A DNA stretch of 35,411 nucleotides. Origin: Holospora curviuscula. Lineage in GTDB: Bacteria; Pseudomonadota; Alphaproteobacteria; Holosporales; Holosporaceae. Position 1 is the stretch's first letter. The number at the start of each line of letters is the position of its first letter. Where the stretch lies: NCBI RefSeq assembly GCF_002930195.1, contig NZ_PHHC01000096.1:22599-58009 (forward strand), given 5' to 3'. Positions 14,170 through 32,323 of the stretch are shown piece by piece. The notes beneath the pieces are model-generated. The model did no database searches and was not told the DNA's origin. It saw only the letters and a list, made by a program, of their open reading frames with translations. The translations under genes and the position numbers were made by a program.

Positions 14170-14919
14170 ATGAAGTTACGCTTTAAACAATGGAAGTGTT
14201 TACTTCTCTCGCTTCTATCGATAGAGACACTGTGTATTATAGGGTGCACTTCTAAAAAAAATTCTCAGCTTTCTCAGAACATTACGGTTGTCACCTGCGC
14301 AGATTATCCTCCCTTTGAATATTATACAGCAGAGCGAAACTTAGAAGGATTTGACATTGAACTCATTCAACTCATTGCAAAAATTTTAAAAAAGAAGGTA
14401 CACTTTGAGGTATTAGAGTTCAGTGGAATTCTTGCAGCTCTTGAAACACACCGAGCAGATGTGGGAATTGCCACTATCTCTATTACACAAGAGCGTCAGA
14501 AACAATTTAAGTTTTCTAAACCTTACTATACTCAGGTTTTATACGCTTTATTTCGAAAGGGAGATTCTAAAAAGTTTTCAGGAAAAATTTTAGGTTGTCA
14601 AATGGGTACCACTATGGAAGATTGGATTAAAATCCATCATCCAAAAGAACAGTGTGTAATCATGGATGAGAATTTACCCTTAGTAGAAGCATTAAAAGCA
14701 AAAAAAATAGATCTTATAGTGTTGGATGCATATCAAGCAAAGGAATTTTGTCAAATGAATCCAGAATTACAGAGAGTTCCTTTGGGAAAGAGTACTAGCA
14801 GTTACGGTATTGTATTTCCTAAAAATTCTGTACTTTGTGAAGCGGTGAACGCAGCTTTGGAGGAGCTAGAACAGAGTGGTGCCTTACAAAAACTCAAATA
14901 TAAATATCATATTGAATAA
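14170..14919 (+). CDS. Polar amino-acid ABC transporter, substrate-binding lipoprotein
   Basis: A 249-residue family-3 solute-binding protein. The signal sequence ends in a lipobox (IIGC, Cys26), so the mature protein is probably lipid-anchored. The mature part starts ITVVTCADYPPFEYYTAERNLEGFDIELIQLIAKIL, the typical first lobe of His/Gln/Arg binding proteins. It continues with ALETHRADVGIATISITQERQKQFKFSKPYY and the return lobe DENLPLVEALKAKKIDLIVLDAYQAKEF, ending in YGIVFPKNS. It delivers an amino acid to the permease and ATPase encoded immediately downstream. The exact substrate is not evident. The ATG at 14170 gives a normal lipoprotein signal; the ribosome-binding site is weak. Confidence 0.9.
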   Translation: MKLRFKQWKCLLLSLLSIETLCIIGCTSKKNSQLSQNITVVTCADYPPFEYYTAERNLEGFDIELIQLIAKILKKKVHFEVLEFSGILAALETHRADVGIATISITQERQKQFKFSKPYYTQVLYALFRKGDSKKFSGKILGCQMGTTMEDWIKIHHPKEQCVIMDENLPLVEALKAKKIDLIVLDAYQAKEFCQMNPELQRVPLGKSTSSYGIVFPKNSVLCEAVNAALEELEQSGALQKLKYKYHIE

Positions 14920-14922
14920 TCC

Positions 14923-15564
14923 ATGACAGTAGTAGAACAAGTTTTATTTATCGGAAAAGGATTAGGTGTTACGCTTATTCTTTTTTTTGGAGCCTTAGCG
15001 ATAGGTGGAATTTTAGGAATAAGCGTTTCAGTATTAAGACGGTCTTTTAAAATTTTTCGACTTTTTGTTGATAATGTGATTTCGATTCTTCGAGGTACAC
15101 CAGTTATATTACAACTAAGTTTTGTCTATTTTACGCTACCAAGTCTAGGGATTTCGATAGGATTTCTTACAGCTGGAGTTGTTACATTGGGCATAAATAG
15201 TGCGGCTTATATAGGCGAAATATTTCGTTCTGGTATTGATGCGCTACCCTCTGGTCAATTTGAAGCAGCGCGAGTATTAGGGGTTACTTCGTATAGGCTT
15301 TGGAAAGACATTATTATGCCTCAGGTATTGCGAAACGTTTGGTCTTCTTTGATCAATGAATCCATCGCCTTACTGAAAGAAACAGCATTGATTTCCACTA
15401 TTGGAGGAACGGATATTTTGAAATGTGCAAAACATTTGGGATCTATACAATTTACTTATTTTGCACCTTTAGTGATTGCCGGCGTTTACTATTATGGTAT
15501 TGTATTGTGTATTGAGTATTGCGGAAAATATGTAGAAAGGCGGAGTTTTCCATGGTCAGCATAA
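14923..15564 (+). CDS. Polar amino-acid ABC transporter, permease
   Basis: HisM/GlnP-type inner-membrane permease, 213 residues with about five membrane helices. Family landmarks: VLRRSFKIFRLFVDNVISILRGTPVILQLSFVYF (about 38-71), GINSAAYIGEIFRSGIDALPSGQFEAARVLG and the EAA coupling loop EAARVLGVTSYRLWKDIIMPQ, which docks on the ATPase. Only 3 bases separate it from the binding-protein stop, and it overlaps the next gene by 13 bases, so the three are one operon. With a single permease gene it probably forms a homodimer. Confidence 0.9.
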   Translation: MTVVEQVLFIGKGLGVTLILFFGALAIGGILGISVSVLRRSFKIFRLFVDNVISILRGTPVILQLSFVYFTLPSLGISIGFLTAGVVTLGINSAAYIGEIFRSGIDALPSGQFEAARVLGVTSYRLWKDIIMPQVLRNVWSSLINESIALLKETALISTIGGTDILKCAKHLGSIQFTYFAPLVIAGVYYYGIVLCIEYCGKYVERRSFPWSA

Positions 15565-16208
15565 CCAATGCAACAAAATATTTTGGGAATGAATGTGTAC
15601 TTCACCACCTAAATTTACAGATTTCTTCGATAGAAATTGTAGGGCTTGCAGGATCATCGGGAAGTGGTAAATCAACACTTTTAAGATGTATTCAAGGATT
15701 AGAAGTTTTAGATGAAGGTGTTATTAAGCGCCCAGACCATACTGGATTTATGTTTCAGGACTTTCAACTTTTTCCCCATATGACAGTGTGGGAAAATATA
15801 CTTTACGCTCCCTTACGGGAAAAAAAGCCTCAGTGTACCGAGAATGCCCAAGAACTTTTGCACTCCCTAGAGATTTTTTCTCAGAAACATATCTATCCTC
15901 AGCGTCTATCGGGAGGACAAAAACAACGGGTGGCACTTGCACGGGCATTAATGATGGATCCTCAACTTTTGTTATGCGATGAACCCACTTCAGGATTAGA
16001 TCGAGGAAATATTCGAAGCGTTGTTCAAATTTTAAAGCGAGTACACGAAAAGGGAGTAATATTGCTCATTGCTTCCCATGATTTAGACTTTCTTTGTAAT
16101 TTGTGTCATCGTATTTTAATGATGCGTTACGGAAAAATTATCTTAGATGTATCTCCTCAACAAGAAGGATTTCGTGAAGAGCATCTTTACGAATTTTATC
16201 AAAAATAA
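15552..16208 (+). CDS. Polar amino-acid ABC transporter, ATP-binding protein
   Basis: A 218-residue importer ATPase: Walker A GSSGSGKST, Q-loop FMFQDFQLFPHMTVWENI, signature LSGGQKQRVALARAL, Walker B LLLCDEPTSGLD and H-loop SHD are all intact. ATG 15552 is preferred over a TTG at 15519 because AAGGCGGAG lies 6 bases before it and it gives the usual start (VSITNATKYFG). The C-terminus is slightly short of the 240 residues of typical GlnQ/HisP. The TAA stop codon (16206-16208) is exactly the target-site copy of the IS5a insertion that begins at 16209, so the gene ends where the element starts, yet its reading frame is not extended into it. Confidence 0.92.
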   Translation: MVSITNATKYFGNECVLHHLNLQISSIEIVGLAGSSGSGKSTLLRCIQGLEVLDEGVIKRPDHTGFMFQDFQLFPHMTVWENILYAPLREKKPQCTENAQELLHSLEIFSQKHIYPQRLSGGQKQRVALARALMMDPQLLLCDEPTSGLDRGNIRSVVQILKRVHEKGVILLIASHDLDFLCNLCHRILMMRYGKIILDVSPQQEGFREEHLYEFYQK

Positions 16209-19960: not shown

Positions 19961-20629
19961 ATGAAACTTTTTGAAAGAGTTGACGCTGTTTTTTTTGACT
20001 GGGACGGAACATTGGTAGACACGGTACCATTCGGCTTGTCTGTGATGAATAGTTTTCTTTCTCATAGAGGAAAAGAAGAAATTAGGAAAAAAGTGTATTT
20101 AACATCTCCATCTCTTTCAGTACGAGATGCTTTTAAGTCGATGTTTTTACCCCATGAGTACGAAGATGCAATACGGGACTTTAGGTTATTCTTAGAAAAA
20201 AACACTAAAAAAATTGTTCCTTTTGATAGTTCTTATAGTGTGCTAAAACTATTGCGTAGTAAAAGTATTCCCATGGGAATTGTTAGCAATCAATATGGAG
20301 ATGTGTTACGTCGTCAGGTAAAAGAATTAGCATGGGAGTCGTATTTCTGTTCTATTACGGGTTCAGGAGATTGGGAGGAAGATAAACCGTCTCCTTTACC
20401 TTTAGTACAATCTTTAAAGACTATAGGAATCAACCCTAGCACATCCGTACTTTTTGTGGGGGATTCATTCGTAGACATGATGTGTGCTGGACGTGCAGGA
20501 TGTACCCCAGTATCCGTAGGGCCACAAGCAGAAACTTTTGAGGGAAATTTTATTTCTTTTAAAAATATTTTTGATTTTTATGATGGAATTAAGTGTTCAA
20601 TAGACAATAATTTTTTAGGAGAAAGATAA
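19961..20629 (+). CDS. HAD-superfamily phosphatase (phosphoglycolate phosphatase-like)
   Basis: A 222-residue haloacid dehalogenase-type hydrolase: motif I FFDWDGTLVDT (nucleophile Asp13, Asp15), an inserted helical cap (about 20-85), motif II GIVSNQ, motif III Lys in DKPSPLP and motif IV VGDSFVDMMCAG. Gph/PpaX-like proteins dephosphorylate small phosphate esters; the substrate here is unknown. An in-frame ATG at 19949 lies only 5 bases after the tRNA-fMet 3' end, but the ATG at 19961 has GGGAG 5 bases before it and is the better start. The stop overlaps the hfq start (TAATG). Likely transcribed with tRNA-fMet. Confidence 0.85.
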   Translation: MKLFERVDAVFFDWDGTLVDTVPFGLSVMNSFLSHRGKEEIRKKVYLTSPSLSVRDAFKSMFLPHEYEDAIRDFRLFLEKNTKKIVPFDSSYSVLKLLRSKSIPMGIVSNQYGDVLRRQVKELAWESYFCSITGSGDWEEDKPSPLPLVQSLKTIGINPSTSVLFVGDSFVDMMCAGRAGCTPVSVGPQAETFEGNFISFKNIFDFYDGIKCSIDNNFLGER

Positions 20630-20931
20630 TGTTTACTCAGAAAAATCTTCCCGGTGAGCCTTTGAAGGGAGTATTCGAAGTGCCTACTTTGAGAAAAGAC
20701 TTTTTGCTGGTGTTGTGTATGCAGAAAGTTTCTGTGACGGTATTTCTTATGAGTGGTATTAAGTTACAAGGGTATATTGAGCAGTTTAGTGATGATTGCC
20801 TCATTCTTAGAAAAGATGGTATTGTTCAGATTTTGTATCAACATGCGATCTCTTCCATTATGCCGGTCACTCCTTTTACAGCACCTAATTTTTCGACTTC
20901 TAGTTTTATGGGGTCAGGTCCTGTGACCTAG
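20629..20931 (+). CDS. hfq: Hfq RNA chaperone, divergent
   Basis: A 100-residue Sm-like protein that should form the hexameric RNA-chaperone ring. The Sm1 core VSVTVFLMSGIKLQGYIEQF and Sm2 YQHAISSIMP are clear. Against the alphaproteobacterial pattern FDNFCVLLRRDG...YKHAIS, several proximal-site residues differ: Phe42 becomes Asp (FSDDC), Lys56 becomes Gln (YQHA) and Gln8 becomes Arg. The arginine-rich rim (R16, R17) reads Cys-Met. The N-terminus has about 20 extra residues before the first helix and the C-terminal tail is short. Coupled to the HAD gene by TAATG with GGAG upstream. The fold is surely Hfq; U-rich sRNA 3'-end binding may be altered. Confidence 0.9.
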   Translation: MFTQKNLPGEPLKGVFEVPTLRKDFLLVLCMQKVSVTVFLMSGIKLQGYIEQFSDDCLILRKDGIVQILYQHAISSIMPVTPFTAPNFSTSSFMGSGPVT

Positions 20932-25775: not shown

Positions 25776-26174
25776 ATGAAAAAAATTATAGTTCTTGGAT
25801 ATGTTATGGTAGGATTCAGTATACCAGCATTTACGGACCCTTTATCCCCCCATCATCCTGTTCATCCTGGAGGTATTATTTCAGCGCATGATGCGGAAAA
25901 ACTAAAAACACCCGATGCGCGAGATGAAGTACTCATAGCATTCCGAGACGAGAAAGCACTGCCCGGTATTATGTCGTTACTAAGCGAGATTCGTATTATT
26001 TTATCGGAACTAGAAGGGACGAATACAGAAGCAAAAGAAGCATTAAACTCGATTGAACAGTCTATTTCACAAAATTCTAATAATCCAGCTGTATTGGAAG
26101 AAGTTTTGAAAAAAATGCGTACATTATATAGTCAAAAGCAATTAAATTTAATAAAAATGAAAAGTATTTACTAG
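25776..26174 (+). CDS. Small exported helical protein of unknown function
   Basis: 132 residues with a signal peptide (MKKIIVLGYVMVGFSIPAFT, cleavage near residue 20). The mature N-terminus is His/Pro-rich (DPLSPHHPVHPGG). The rest is predicted helical: DAEKLKTPDARDEVLIAFRDEK, MSLLSEIRIILSELEGTNTEAKEALNSIEQSIS and PAVLEEVLKKMRTLYSQKQ. No family is recognised. It is divergent from the tail-fibre-like operon; only 70 bases separate the two starts, so both promoters must lie there. It is the first of several signal-peptide genes in the right third of the window. Confidence 0.55.
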   Translation: MKKIIVLGYVMVGFSIPAFTDPLSPHHPVHPGGIISAHDAEKLKTPDARDEVLIAFRDEKALPGIMSLLSEIRIILSELEGTNTEAKEALNSIEQSISQNSNNPAVLEEVLKKMRTLYSQKQLNLIKMKSIY

Positions 26175-28311: not shown

Positions 28312-29133
28312 ATGAAAAAATTTAATCCTATATGTATCCTACCTTCTTTTTTAATGCTTTTTTCGGTAGAAGGTGTAAGTGGAAAAGACAGAAAGGCTAC
28401 AATCAGAGCAGAAAAGGCAGCAATTAAAGACGAAAAAAAGACTATATCGCTCTCTAAATGTATCTACAAACAACGAAATTATGTTAAACGTTCTTTTATG
28501 CGACAAAACCATTCAATCTCTTCGTTGGGGCTAGAAGATCTTTTAAATGATTTCCAAAAGGTTACAATATCTAAAAAAATAAGAAAAAATAGAAAAGTGA
28601 CCATAGAGACTGATGCAAAAAGAGAAAAAATTTCTGATAAATTTTCAGAAACAATTATAGAAGGTTTTAATAAGTATCCTTTCATAGAGATAATGATAGG
28701 CACTGATAGTATTGAAGAACTTTCCGATTACTATGGCGAGAAATATGCGAACAGTGTGAAAATTACAGAATTCGATGACATTATGGACAAAATGGATAAA
28801 ACTCTGGAAGAAGTAAAGCACTTTGAAGACTTTAATCCAAGCAATCTTACGATACTCTCTAAAACAATTATAAACTACTTCATTCCTGCGGTTCAACAGA
28901 GCATACTGACGCACAAGAAAGATTCTAGCAAAGTCGTAGAGGATCTTTCTAAAAAAGTCGTGGAGGATCTTTCTAAAAAAGTCGTGGAGGATATGAAAAA
29001 AACGTTTTTCTTTAACAAAGAGGGTAAAAGTATGCGCATTGTTTCAACCCAAAAGGGTAATAGTATGCCCATTGTTTCAACCCAAAAACCACAGATAATC
29101 TTCCTTAAAAAAAAAGATAATCCTTCTCAATAA
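28312..29133 (+). CDS. Exported lysine-rich protein with short tandem repeats
   Basis: 273 residues, not recognised. The signal peptide is MKKFNPICILPSFLMLFSVEGVSG (cleavage near 24). The mature part is highly charged (KDRKATIRAEKAAIKDEKK) and mainly helical, with two polar middle blocks (SISSLGLEDLLNDFQKVTISKK, TDSIEELSDYYGEKYANSVKITEFDDIMDKMDKTLEEVKHFEDF). Near the C-terminus are two sets of in-frame DNA repeats: a 24-bp unit encoding SKKVVEDL about three times (about 28930-28995) and a 33-bp unit encoding GxSMxIVSTQK twice (29023-29088). Its promoter is probably the TTGACA box at 28249. The exported nature, low complexity and location suggest a host-directed or surface protein; that is inference. 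Confidence 0.6.
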   Translation: MKKFNPICILPSFLMLFSVEGVSGKDRKATIRAEKAAIKDEKKTISLSKCIYKQRNYVKRSFMRQNHSISSLGLEDLLNDFQKVTISKKIRKNRKVTIETDAKREKISDKFSETIIEGFNKYPFIEIMIGTDSIEELSDYYGEKYANSVKITEFDDIMDKMDKTLEEVKHFEDFNPSNLTILSKTIINYFIPAVQQSILTHKKDSSKVVEDLSKKVVEDLSKKVVEDMKKTFFFNKEGKSMRIVSTQKGNSMPIVSTQKPQIIFLKKKDNPSQ

Positions 29134-29972: not shown

Positions 29973-31289
29973 ATGTATAAATCCTTTACTTTATTACTTT
30001 GCTTTTCCTTTACAGTAAGTTCTTACCCTTCTTTAAAAGAAGTATGTTTAGCGCATCGTAGCTTTATCCAAAATGCTTCTGATCGCTATTTCAAGAATAA
30101 TTTATTAGAAAAATACAACGATTCACCTAAAGAAGTTCAGGCTCTTTTTTCTTGCTTTCTTATGATGCTTCTAACACCCAAAATTTTGTTTCCGCTTTAA
30201 AATCTTTTTTGAAGAAAAATGATCCTATTCGAAAAGTAGAACAAAATATAAAAAGAAACGCAGATCTTTTGGCAGAAAATCGTCTAGCACTTTCTACAAT
30301 GCTTCAAAGAGACTATTTATTTTCATCTTCTATGGACAGCTTTCCGTTGTATGAGTACGAAATAGAGCTCCATATTCAACAGCTGGAGTTGAATATTTCT
30401 AGAGATGAAAAAAATATTAAAGATAAATTAAAAGAAGTATCCCTTAAGCTTACTTCGCACGAAATCCAAGTTGCTAAAATGCTTTCTCTATTAGCACAAC
30501 CCAAAGTGGCACTTATAATAAATTTTCCCTTTGCAAAATCAGAAAACTCTTTTAGGGTTATCGATCCAGGACTTCTCGATGTAGCAGATGTTTTAAGTGT
30601 AGAAACGCTAAGTACGATGAAAGAAGGTATGGAAAAAATTCTTGGGCGTCCGGTAAGAATTATTCTTAAAAATGAGACGCACTACTCTGATATATTTGCT
30701 CCCTACATTAAAAACCAAAACGTCATGAAATACCAAGAAGAAATGAAAAAACTTTGTGATGCAAGGGAGATTGACTATCTTCCTTTTGAAACCGTTCTTA
30801 AAGATGGGGTATTAATTCAAGACTATTTAAAAGAAGAAAGCGGTAATTTTTTACGCTTTACACCTTATATACACCATGAGTGCGGAATTGAGGACCGAAG
30901 AGAAGCGGAACAAATTGCAAAAAAATATTGTCAGATGAAAAATTTTATCACAAACAATGTGGATCCGATAAAGATCAGGAGCGTAGTTTGGCCAAGAATG
31001 TGACCCGCTCTCGGCAAGCATTCATGGTAATGATTACAAGACAACACTGAGTAAATTACCCATTTCCTTCATGCCTTACGCCATAGATCCCACTACCCAT
31101 AACCCGCAGCATCACAGTTGTTGTATCACTTTTAATGAAAAGCAAAACAAAATTGTGGAAATATTTATGACGCACGCTCAACCCAATCCATTGAAAAAAG
31201 TTAAATTCAATGCAAAAGATGCTGATTGTATTCTTCTTAAAGGAGAAGAGATGAAAGTGTATAAATGTTTTATAAGAAAGGAAAAATAA
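29973..31289 (+). pseudogene. DIT1/PvcA-like (isocyanide synthase family) protein with signal peptide, copy 1, frameshifted
   Basis: Three overlapping frames join into one ~430-residue protein. Frame 1 (29973-30200) gives a signal peptide (MYKSFTLLLCFSFTVSSYPS). The second (about 30152-31003) carries LIINFPFAKSENSFRVIDPGLLDVADVLSVETLSTMKEGMEKILGRPVRIILKNET and MKYQEEMKKLCD, which parallels the PxFPxKSPN...LPDMAE...Y.PGAKI...AY core of DIT1/PvcA. The third (about 30980-31289) ends LSASIHGNDYKTTLSKLPISFMPYAIDPTTH...ILLKGEEMKVYKCF, like the C-terminal LSIH...TPWH block. Breaks lie near 30145 (a run of six T) and 30980. The family makes isonitriles from Tyr/Trp or related dityrosine precursors. 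The core is more diverged than in copy 2, and canonical DGR is replaced by KNET. Function unproven. Confidence 0.6.
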
Positions 31290-31290
31290 G

Positions 31291-32280
31291 ATGATTTTTA
31301 TATGTATTGGCATAGCTTGTATTTATGGACTTAGTTCTTTTGGAAATATAGTGTGTCCTAACGAATACTTTAGAGAAATTCAATTAATTTCTAAAGTTTT
31401 AGAGCAATATTTTTTAAAAGAAGATATCGAAAAACGCTCTGTAGGTTTGGATTCAATACCCGCTAATGCTTTTAAAAACCTAGATAAATTGCATGACAAA
31501 ATTAAAACTTTTATCCTGCAGAAAAAACCTTTAAAATTTACGCTTTTAGGATTTCCGTTTAAATCACCAAATCGAGAAAACTGCGTTATAGATGGAAGAT
31601 CAGATATGGCAGAGCGATATGCTTTAGAACAGCTAGAACGCTTGGCTAAAGAGATACAAAAAGTTTACTCTCCTGGAGCGAAAATTTTGATTCTTTGTGA
31701 TGGTATTACCGTGGGAAAAGCCTTTGAAATTCCTTACTCTGAGATTGTGGCCTACGAGGAAATTATAAAAAAAATTACTTCAGATCTTAAAAATCTTAAA
31801 ATTTTAACGTTTCGAGATTTTTTTCCTGAAAAAACTCCTCAAGCCATTGATGAAAGTGTGTTAAATCAATGTTCTAATCCTCACCTGGCGTACACTAAAG
31901 AACGAATAAATGTTATGAGTGCACGGTTAAAAAGCAAGCGCTGAATTCGCTTCAAGGACGAAACTTGATGACTAAAAAAGACGTGGTAAAGGAAATGCTT
32001 TTGCGAATTTACGCCCCCAATCAATTTGCTCGACAACATTTTCATAAAAATAGTATTGTTCTTTCGGTATATTATTCTCAAGACTTAGGAGATAAGGGGG
32101 TGTTAAAGTTAGTTCGAGTCTTTTATTTCCTCACTTAGGAAACGCCGCACAAACAGAGAAAAATTTTACAATACGTCTAAAAAAAGATGTCCATCCTAAA
32201 AAGTACCAGTGGACTTATACTACAATTAATAGAGTACAATTAGGATATTTTAAAAAAGTTTCTCCGAAAAAGTCTTTGTA
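31291..32280 (+). pseudogene. DIT1/PvcA-like (isocyanide synthase family) protein with signal-like N-terminus, copy 2, frameshifted
   Basis: The main frame (31291-31944, 217 residues) begins with a hydrophobic, signal-like MIFICIGIACIYGLSSFG. Its core KFTLLGFPFKSPNRENCVIDGRSDMAERYALEQLERLAKEIQKVYSPGAKILILCDGITVGKAFEIPYSEIVAYEEII aligns closely with PvcA/IsnA (FPxKSPN, PDMAERxALEFL, YxPGAKIxIxSDGRVFSD, VxAY). The conserved Arg of SDGR is Ile here. After a frameshift near 31930 (a run of five A) a second frame reads MTKKDVVKEMLLRIYAPNQFARQHFHKNSIVLSVYYSQDLGDKG (LSIH block). Another shift near 32115 leads to a last frame ending at TAA 32278-32280. It starts 1 base after copy 1 ends, with AAGGA upstream of ATG 31291, so the two form an operon closed by the terminator at 32299. 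Confidence 0.7.
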
Positions 32281-32298
32281 ATACTTTGATTCCATGGC

Positions 32299-32323
32299 GA
32301 GGGCGAAAGCCCTTCCTTTTTTT
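32299..32323 (+). terminator. Intrinsic terminator after the DIT1/PvcA-like pair
   Basis: AGGGC-GAAA-GCCCT, a GC-rich stem with a GNRA-type tetraloop, followed by TCC and seven T (32317-32323). It lies 20 bases after the last stop codon of copy 2. Confidence 0.85.

Follow-up and report, generated by a model that had tools for sequence, protein, structure and literature searches.

Isonitrile synthases have been studied as cytoplasmic enzymes of secondary metabolism, most of them paired with PvcB. The locus analyzed here raises the question of what two adjacent genes of this family, both with an export-type N-terminus, represent in the genome of Holospora curviuscula. This bacterium is an intranuclear symbiont of Paramecium with a published genome of 1,715,500 bp (PMC5911502). 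The best reading of our data is that the gene pair is what remains of a so far unreported variant of the isonitrile-synthase fold, made up of two proteins and located outside the cytoplasm; among the papers searched, none dealt with exported isocyanide synthases. That the pair is a decayed member of an exported two-gene branch of the PF05141 (DIT1_PvcA) family is very probable. The fuller reading, in which a decayed B-type gene is followed by a decayed A-type gene of this branch and the mechanism proposed below is included, seems to us somewhat better than an even guess.

The window, i.e. the whole stretch of 35,411 nucleotides that was analyzed, contains two PF05141 genes on the plus strand at 29973-32281, which lie head to tail in the same orientation with copy 1 directly upstream of copy 2. 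Using tblastn and profiles from intact relatives, copy 1 could be followed through frames 3, 2 and 3, and copy 2 through frames 1, 3 and 2. Copy 1 (B-type) begins with an N-terminal piece with a signal-peptide-like start (29973..30150, frame 3, with a frame switch near 30150), which resembles the N-terminus of the intact B protein of G327 (YPSLKEV / YPFLDEV). A central piece with a diverged PF05141 core follows (30152..31003, frame 2 to about 30958; 23.2 bits, E 5.7e-5, under the curated cut-off of 26.4 bits), and then a C-terminal piece in frame 3 (about 30987..31289), which matches the B profile (E 7e-5) and was also recovered by tblastn with the B protein of G397. Copy 2 (A-type) comprises a hydrophobic N-terminal segment together with the N-terminal half of PF05141 (31291..31944, frame 1 to about 31929) and two displaced C-terminal pieces, one in frame 3 (about 31935..32117; A profile E 6.9e-8) and one in frame 2 that ends with TAA (about 32099..32281; A profile E 3.7e-7). 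Its PF05141 match is well above the cut-off (83.1 bits, E 3.1e-23), it matches the solved PvcA structure 3e59 (E 1.3e-14), and it scores 168 bits with the A profile compared with 75 for the canonical and 59 for the B profile. The central piece of copy 1 scores nearly equally with all three (A 24.6, B 21.4, canonical 22.5 bits), and the assignment of copy 1 to type B thus leans on its position and its terminal pieces.

Searching the whole 35-kb window by tblastn with two PvcB proteins gave no match. A stem-loop followed by a T run at 32299..32314 (plus strand) resembles an intrinsic terminator, but such sites are about as frequent in shuffled sequence and their number is not significant (3 sites versus 1.9 expected). 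Just upstream of the pair, 28312-29133 encodes an exported-looking protein of 273 amino acids with internal repeats (KKVVEDLS, STQKGNSMPIVSTQK), for which no Pfam match above cut-off was found; kinship with an exported protein near the orthologous pair of genome G004 was rejected (E 0.09). The short protein at 25776-26174 likewise gave no Pfam match above cut-off, and its start resembles a signal peptide. About 14 kb from the pair, three genes at 14170-16208 read as a putative amino-acid ABC importer (binding protein, permease, ATPase), and the protein encoded at 20629-20931 looks Hfq-like by eye, with an unusual N-terminal extension.

Relatives were located by a scan of the whole collection and by genome searches. 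The patterns used for the scan would miss more divergent A genes, and the true spread of the branch is therefore probably wider than its occurrence in Holosporaceae, other alphaproteobacteria and Candidatus Dependentiae recorded here. Open A genes are present in alphaproteobacterial MAGs (L017, the G397 protein, and L018, the G327 protein) and in three of 101 Candidatus Dependentiae genomes (G404, G459 with two loci, and G485); the intact relatives known to date thus come from a small number of bacteria with small genomes. B adjoins A wherever the contig continues, and intact or near-intact exported pairs are found at G397/L017, G404/L020 (with two B genes), G459/L036 and L037, and G485/L038; in G327, A stops at a contig edge and B starts near the beginning of another contig. 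In the B gene of G397, a clear signal peptide (MSVLNRLLLLALIFVSVPAAQA) is followed by one frame change; the B gene of G327 also has a signal peptide and, close to its end, a single TAG. The A and B genes of Dependentiae are open, with a run of N near the start of B hiding part of the frame at the C73 locus of G459. The two A/B pairs of G459 (L036, L037) show opposite gene order, and the type of ABC-importer gene next to them differs between the two. Viral contigs contained no relatives of A or B; plasmid records yielded only matches below 60% identity, and the four loci fetched from them (L047-L050) are all of the cytoplasmic type.

Both copies in the window start with a hydrophobic segment (MYKSFTLLLCFSFTVSSYPS in copy 1 and MIFICIGIACIYGLSSFGN in copy 2), a signal peptide or membrane anchor is found at the start of every A gene, and a hydrophobic N-terminus in every B protein whose start is readable. 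Export was called from the sequence and from hydropathy, the latter taken as the highest 15-residue average near the N-terminus. The values range from 1.47 to 2.67 for the six open A proteins and from 1.4 to 2.6 for B proteins with a readable start, compared with 0.43 to 1.33 for eight canonical proteins; the hydrophobic N-terminus is thus kept in A and B across two phyla, whereas canonical members lack it. Judged by eye, the A proteins of Dependentiae appear to carry an uncleaved membrane anchor, and the B proteins and alphaproteobacterial A proteins a cleavable signal. For the pair itself, the sequences suggest export across the inner membrane and nothing beyond it; the host-directed protein considered in a preliminary description would go further than that.

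In the final tree, from which long-branch fragments as well as L004, L005 and L006 were omitted, copy 2 belongs to clade A, together with alphaproteobacterial MAGs and Candidatus Dependentiae and separate from canonical PvcA/IsnA proteins (support 100/99 for A, 97/96 for Dependentiae B and 100/98 for the canonical clade). Even when the long-branch fragments were included, 84% of the bootstrap trees recovered A as a single group. The omitted L004 (1375-2520), L005 (1318-2175) and L006 (1192-2037) are divergent alphaproteobacterial PF05141 genes without hydrophobic N-termini; they form very long branches of unsure placement, and L006 is under the PF05141 cut-off. Intact A proteins score 139-166 bits and Dependentiae B proteins 44-122 bits against PF05141, and the profiles of A and Dependentiae B match across the whole domain (probability 99.8%). 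The alphaproteobacterial B protein that was tested (G397) gave no PF05141 match in the Pfam search; the profiles of alphaproteobacterial and Dependentiae B align weakly but colinearly (hhalign probability 30%), and the label B here also draws on where the gene lies and on motifs like FKSAN and SIHVED. None of the proteins scored with the equivalog model for L-tyrosine isonitrile synthases (NF045653, PvcA/IsnA; cut-off 600 bits) comes near its threshold (111.4 for the intact A of G327, 85.5 for the A of G404 and 58.8 for copy 2).

The predicted fold was compared with 9dh4, 9dhm and 3e59 using intact relatives rather than the broken copies of the window. The model of an intact A protein (pLDDT 83.9) is closest to PIsnA (Z 31.0) and PvcA (Z 30.4), with tyrosyl-tRNA synthetase as the next-best fold (Z 10.4). 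For an intact B protein the model is poorer (pLDDT 67.6), but PIsnA and PvcA are again on top (Z 17.9 versus 9.3 for the next fold). The PIsnA structures 9dh4 and 9dhm were solved with L-tyrosine (according to the title of 9dh4) and with the isonitrile product.

At the site of the canonical SDGR/SDGH motif, copy 2 reads CDGI and copy 1 NETH, and clade A in general has DG[LIMT] instead of SDG[RH]. The other family positions are kept in A, namely FPxKSxN, DxAE, DG, the His of RL(S/T)(V/L)H, KxGI and TP[WY]HG. In canonical proteins the residue following DG is R, H or Y (the latter once), and in the solved PIsnA it is His; the Arg alone is therefore not decisive for activity. Yeast Dit1, also a PF05141 protein, was reported to produce formyl-tyrosine and not an isonitrile (PMC7345447), which indicates that the chemistry can drift within this fold. 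The B proteins of G459 retain most motifs (SDGH, SDGY), and those of G404, G485 and the alphaproteobacteria have lost several; such a graded loss is as expected if B is a partner turning into a pseudoenzyme.

Most of what a preliminary description had read from the window alone is borne out by these comparisons. It had described two adjacent PvcA/DIT1-type genes with export-type N-termini, both devoid of the Arg of SDGR and with no PvcB gene next to them, and all of this holds, with copy 1 under the PF05141 cut-off. The exported branch that it proposed exists. Neither of the findings that it named as refuting its reading was made: the match to PF05141 is significant, and the intact members L017, L018, L020 and L036-L038 have the hydrophobic N-terminus and lack SDGR. 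The pairing of paralogues is real and conserved in relatives, and the structural comparison with PvcA/IsnA that it suggested places the predicted models of both proteins in this fold (Z 30-31 for A, 17.9 for B). Its term "catalytically altered" fits only in part: the remaining family motifs are intact in clade A, and the Arg has no diagnostic value given the His of PIsnA.

An adjacent PvcB gene is usual, though not universal, for PvcA/IsnA genes. PvcB adjoins six of the canonical loci (L019, L021, L022, L023, L047, L049), and no PvcB-type Fe/2OG oxygenase was found at any A/B locus. A Burkholderia gene of the isocyanide synthase family (L050, 2327-3337) has SDGY and adjoins an MFS efflux gene, with no PvcB in the stretch read. 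At three of the four Dependentiae loci, A and B are adjoined by ABC-importer genes, which are TrpX-like at two of them. The gene order is A-B1-B2-binding protein-permease-ATPase in G404 and permease-ATPase-binding protein-B-A, all on one strand, at the C73 locus of G459. The two binding proteins match the TrpX family with 137 and 155 bits (cut-off 390), and share 21% identity with each other. At the C90 locus of G459, a GlnQ-like ATPase gene ends about 10 bases before A. No importer was found in the stretches read at G485 and the alphaproteobacterial loci.

In its working form, as the intact relatives show, the module consists of A, which has the whole PvcA fold, and its paralogue B, which evolves faster; both carry an export signal, their genes are adjacent, and PvcB is absent. 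A would either stay attached to the inner membrane or be set free into the periplasm, and B would be periplasmic and act together with A. The pair probably acted on host-derived aromatic amino acids. A might be an enzyme using these compounds, as the PIsnA fold binds L-Tyr, and might form a product of the isonitrile or formyl type outside the cytoplasm; B might support or regulate A, having lost catalytic motifs in some lineages, and substrate or product might be taken up via the TrpX-type importer where this is adjacent. The family positions retained in A favor an enzyme. Known isonitrile synthases need ribulose-5-phosphate, which is not expected in a periplasm, and this doubtful supply, together with the importers, favors a function in binding only. 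We propose an enzymatic mechanism for A and B, whose chemistry we infer, only tentatively. Its most specific version, an extracytoplasmic heteromeric enzyme that forms isonitriles or formyl compounds from host aromatic amino acids and is coupled to a dedicated ABC importer, appears rather doubtful; if true, it would be the first case of such chemistry outside the cytoplasm, spread between symbiont phyla.

Alternatively, A and B might be repurposed extracytoplasmic receptors that have lost isonitrile chemistry and pass host aromatic amino acids or their derivatives to the TrpX- or GlnQ-type importer. The importer genes at three of four Dependentiae loci, the L-Tyr bound in a solved relative (9dh4), the loss of the SDG[RH] residue in A and of several family motifs in B, and the ribulose-5-phosphate that a periplasm would generally not be expected to hold are all consistent with this idea. 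However, the Lys, Asp/Glu, His and TP[WY]HG positions common to canonical enzymes are intact in A, the importer loci already encode a binding protein of their own, and the pairs of G485 and the alphaproteobacteria have no importer beside them, so that we regard receptors as a rather unlikely explanation.

Whatever the function of the exported pair was, it is lost in H. curviuscula, where both copies are pseudogenes with at least two frame changes each, i.e. at least four within 2.3 kb. The tandem arrangement had been recognized in the preliminary description without the pseudogene state being made explicit, and its notion of a working dedicated unit does not hold here: both copies are broken, neither was found in the two other Holospora genomes searched, and the pair is broken in G004 as well. 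Illumina MiSeq reads seldom produce indels. It might nevertheless be argued that errors in assembly or sequencing account for the frame changes and that H. curviuscula has two intact exported genes, since the assembly is a draft of 152 contigs and the single frame change in the B gene of G397 is possibly an error. However, the H. curviuscula assembly is based on paired-end and mate-pair sequencing with Illumina MiSeq (PMC5911502), and elsewhere in the window many long conserved genes are open, which makes sequencing error unlikely. In addition, the related genome G004, which belongs to the same family and consists of a single contig, has the orthologous pair broken by in-frame stops, three in copy 1 (TGA once, TAA twice) and two in copy 2 (TAG and TGA); stop-codon reassignment was rejected for this genome, as all three stop codons, TAA, TAG and TGA, interrupt the reading frames of its pair. 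Two intact genes are thus a very improbable explanation. Only remnants of both A and B are found in a third lineage, G247 (L046, 2400-3900), with a stop inside the B signal peptide, which represents repeated decay of the module; within the Holosporaceae, the repeated decay of A and B records that such a function was lost.

That the pair represents ordinary PvcA/IsnA genes of secondary metabolism, horizontally acquired and now decaying with incidentally hydrophobic N-termini, is hardly credible despite the similarity in fold and motifs to PvcA/PIsnA, given an N-terminus kept across two phyla and missing from canonical proteins, the lack of PvcB, the separate clade, and 111 bits against an equivalog cut-off of 600. 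The branch of which the pair is very probably a remnant is exported and paired, has no PvcB, and is common to alphaproteobacterial symbionts and Dependentiae; it suggests a role at the symbiont-host interface and a link to the uptake of aromatic amino acids that can be tested. It also illustrates that a DIT1_PvcA annotation by itself cannot be taken as isonitrile biosynthesis.

Among known systems, PvcA of Pseudomonas aeruginosa (3e59) shares with A the fold (Z 30.4) and the motifs FPxKSPN, PDxAER, DG, RLSIH and PWH, but it has SDGR, is encoded in an operon with pvcB and lacks an export signal, whereas A is exported, has DG[LIMT] and is paired with B. PIsnA, an L-Tyr/L-Trp isonitrile synthase (9dh4, 9dhm), likewise shares the fold of A (Z 31.0) and differs by its SDGH, while the paralogues A and B are both exported and either have DG[LIMT] or have lost DG. 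For yeast Dit1, we know of no paired paralogue. In contrast to the exported pair, this eukaryotic protein was reported to reside in the cytosol of the spore (PMC7345447). The TrpX-type tryptophan ABC transporter (NF041285) corresponds to the binding protein, permease and ATPase adjoining A and B at two Dependentiae loci; it is, however, a separate system, and these neighbors are far under its equivalog cut-off of 390 bits.
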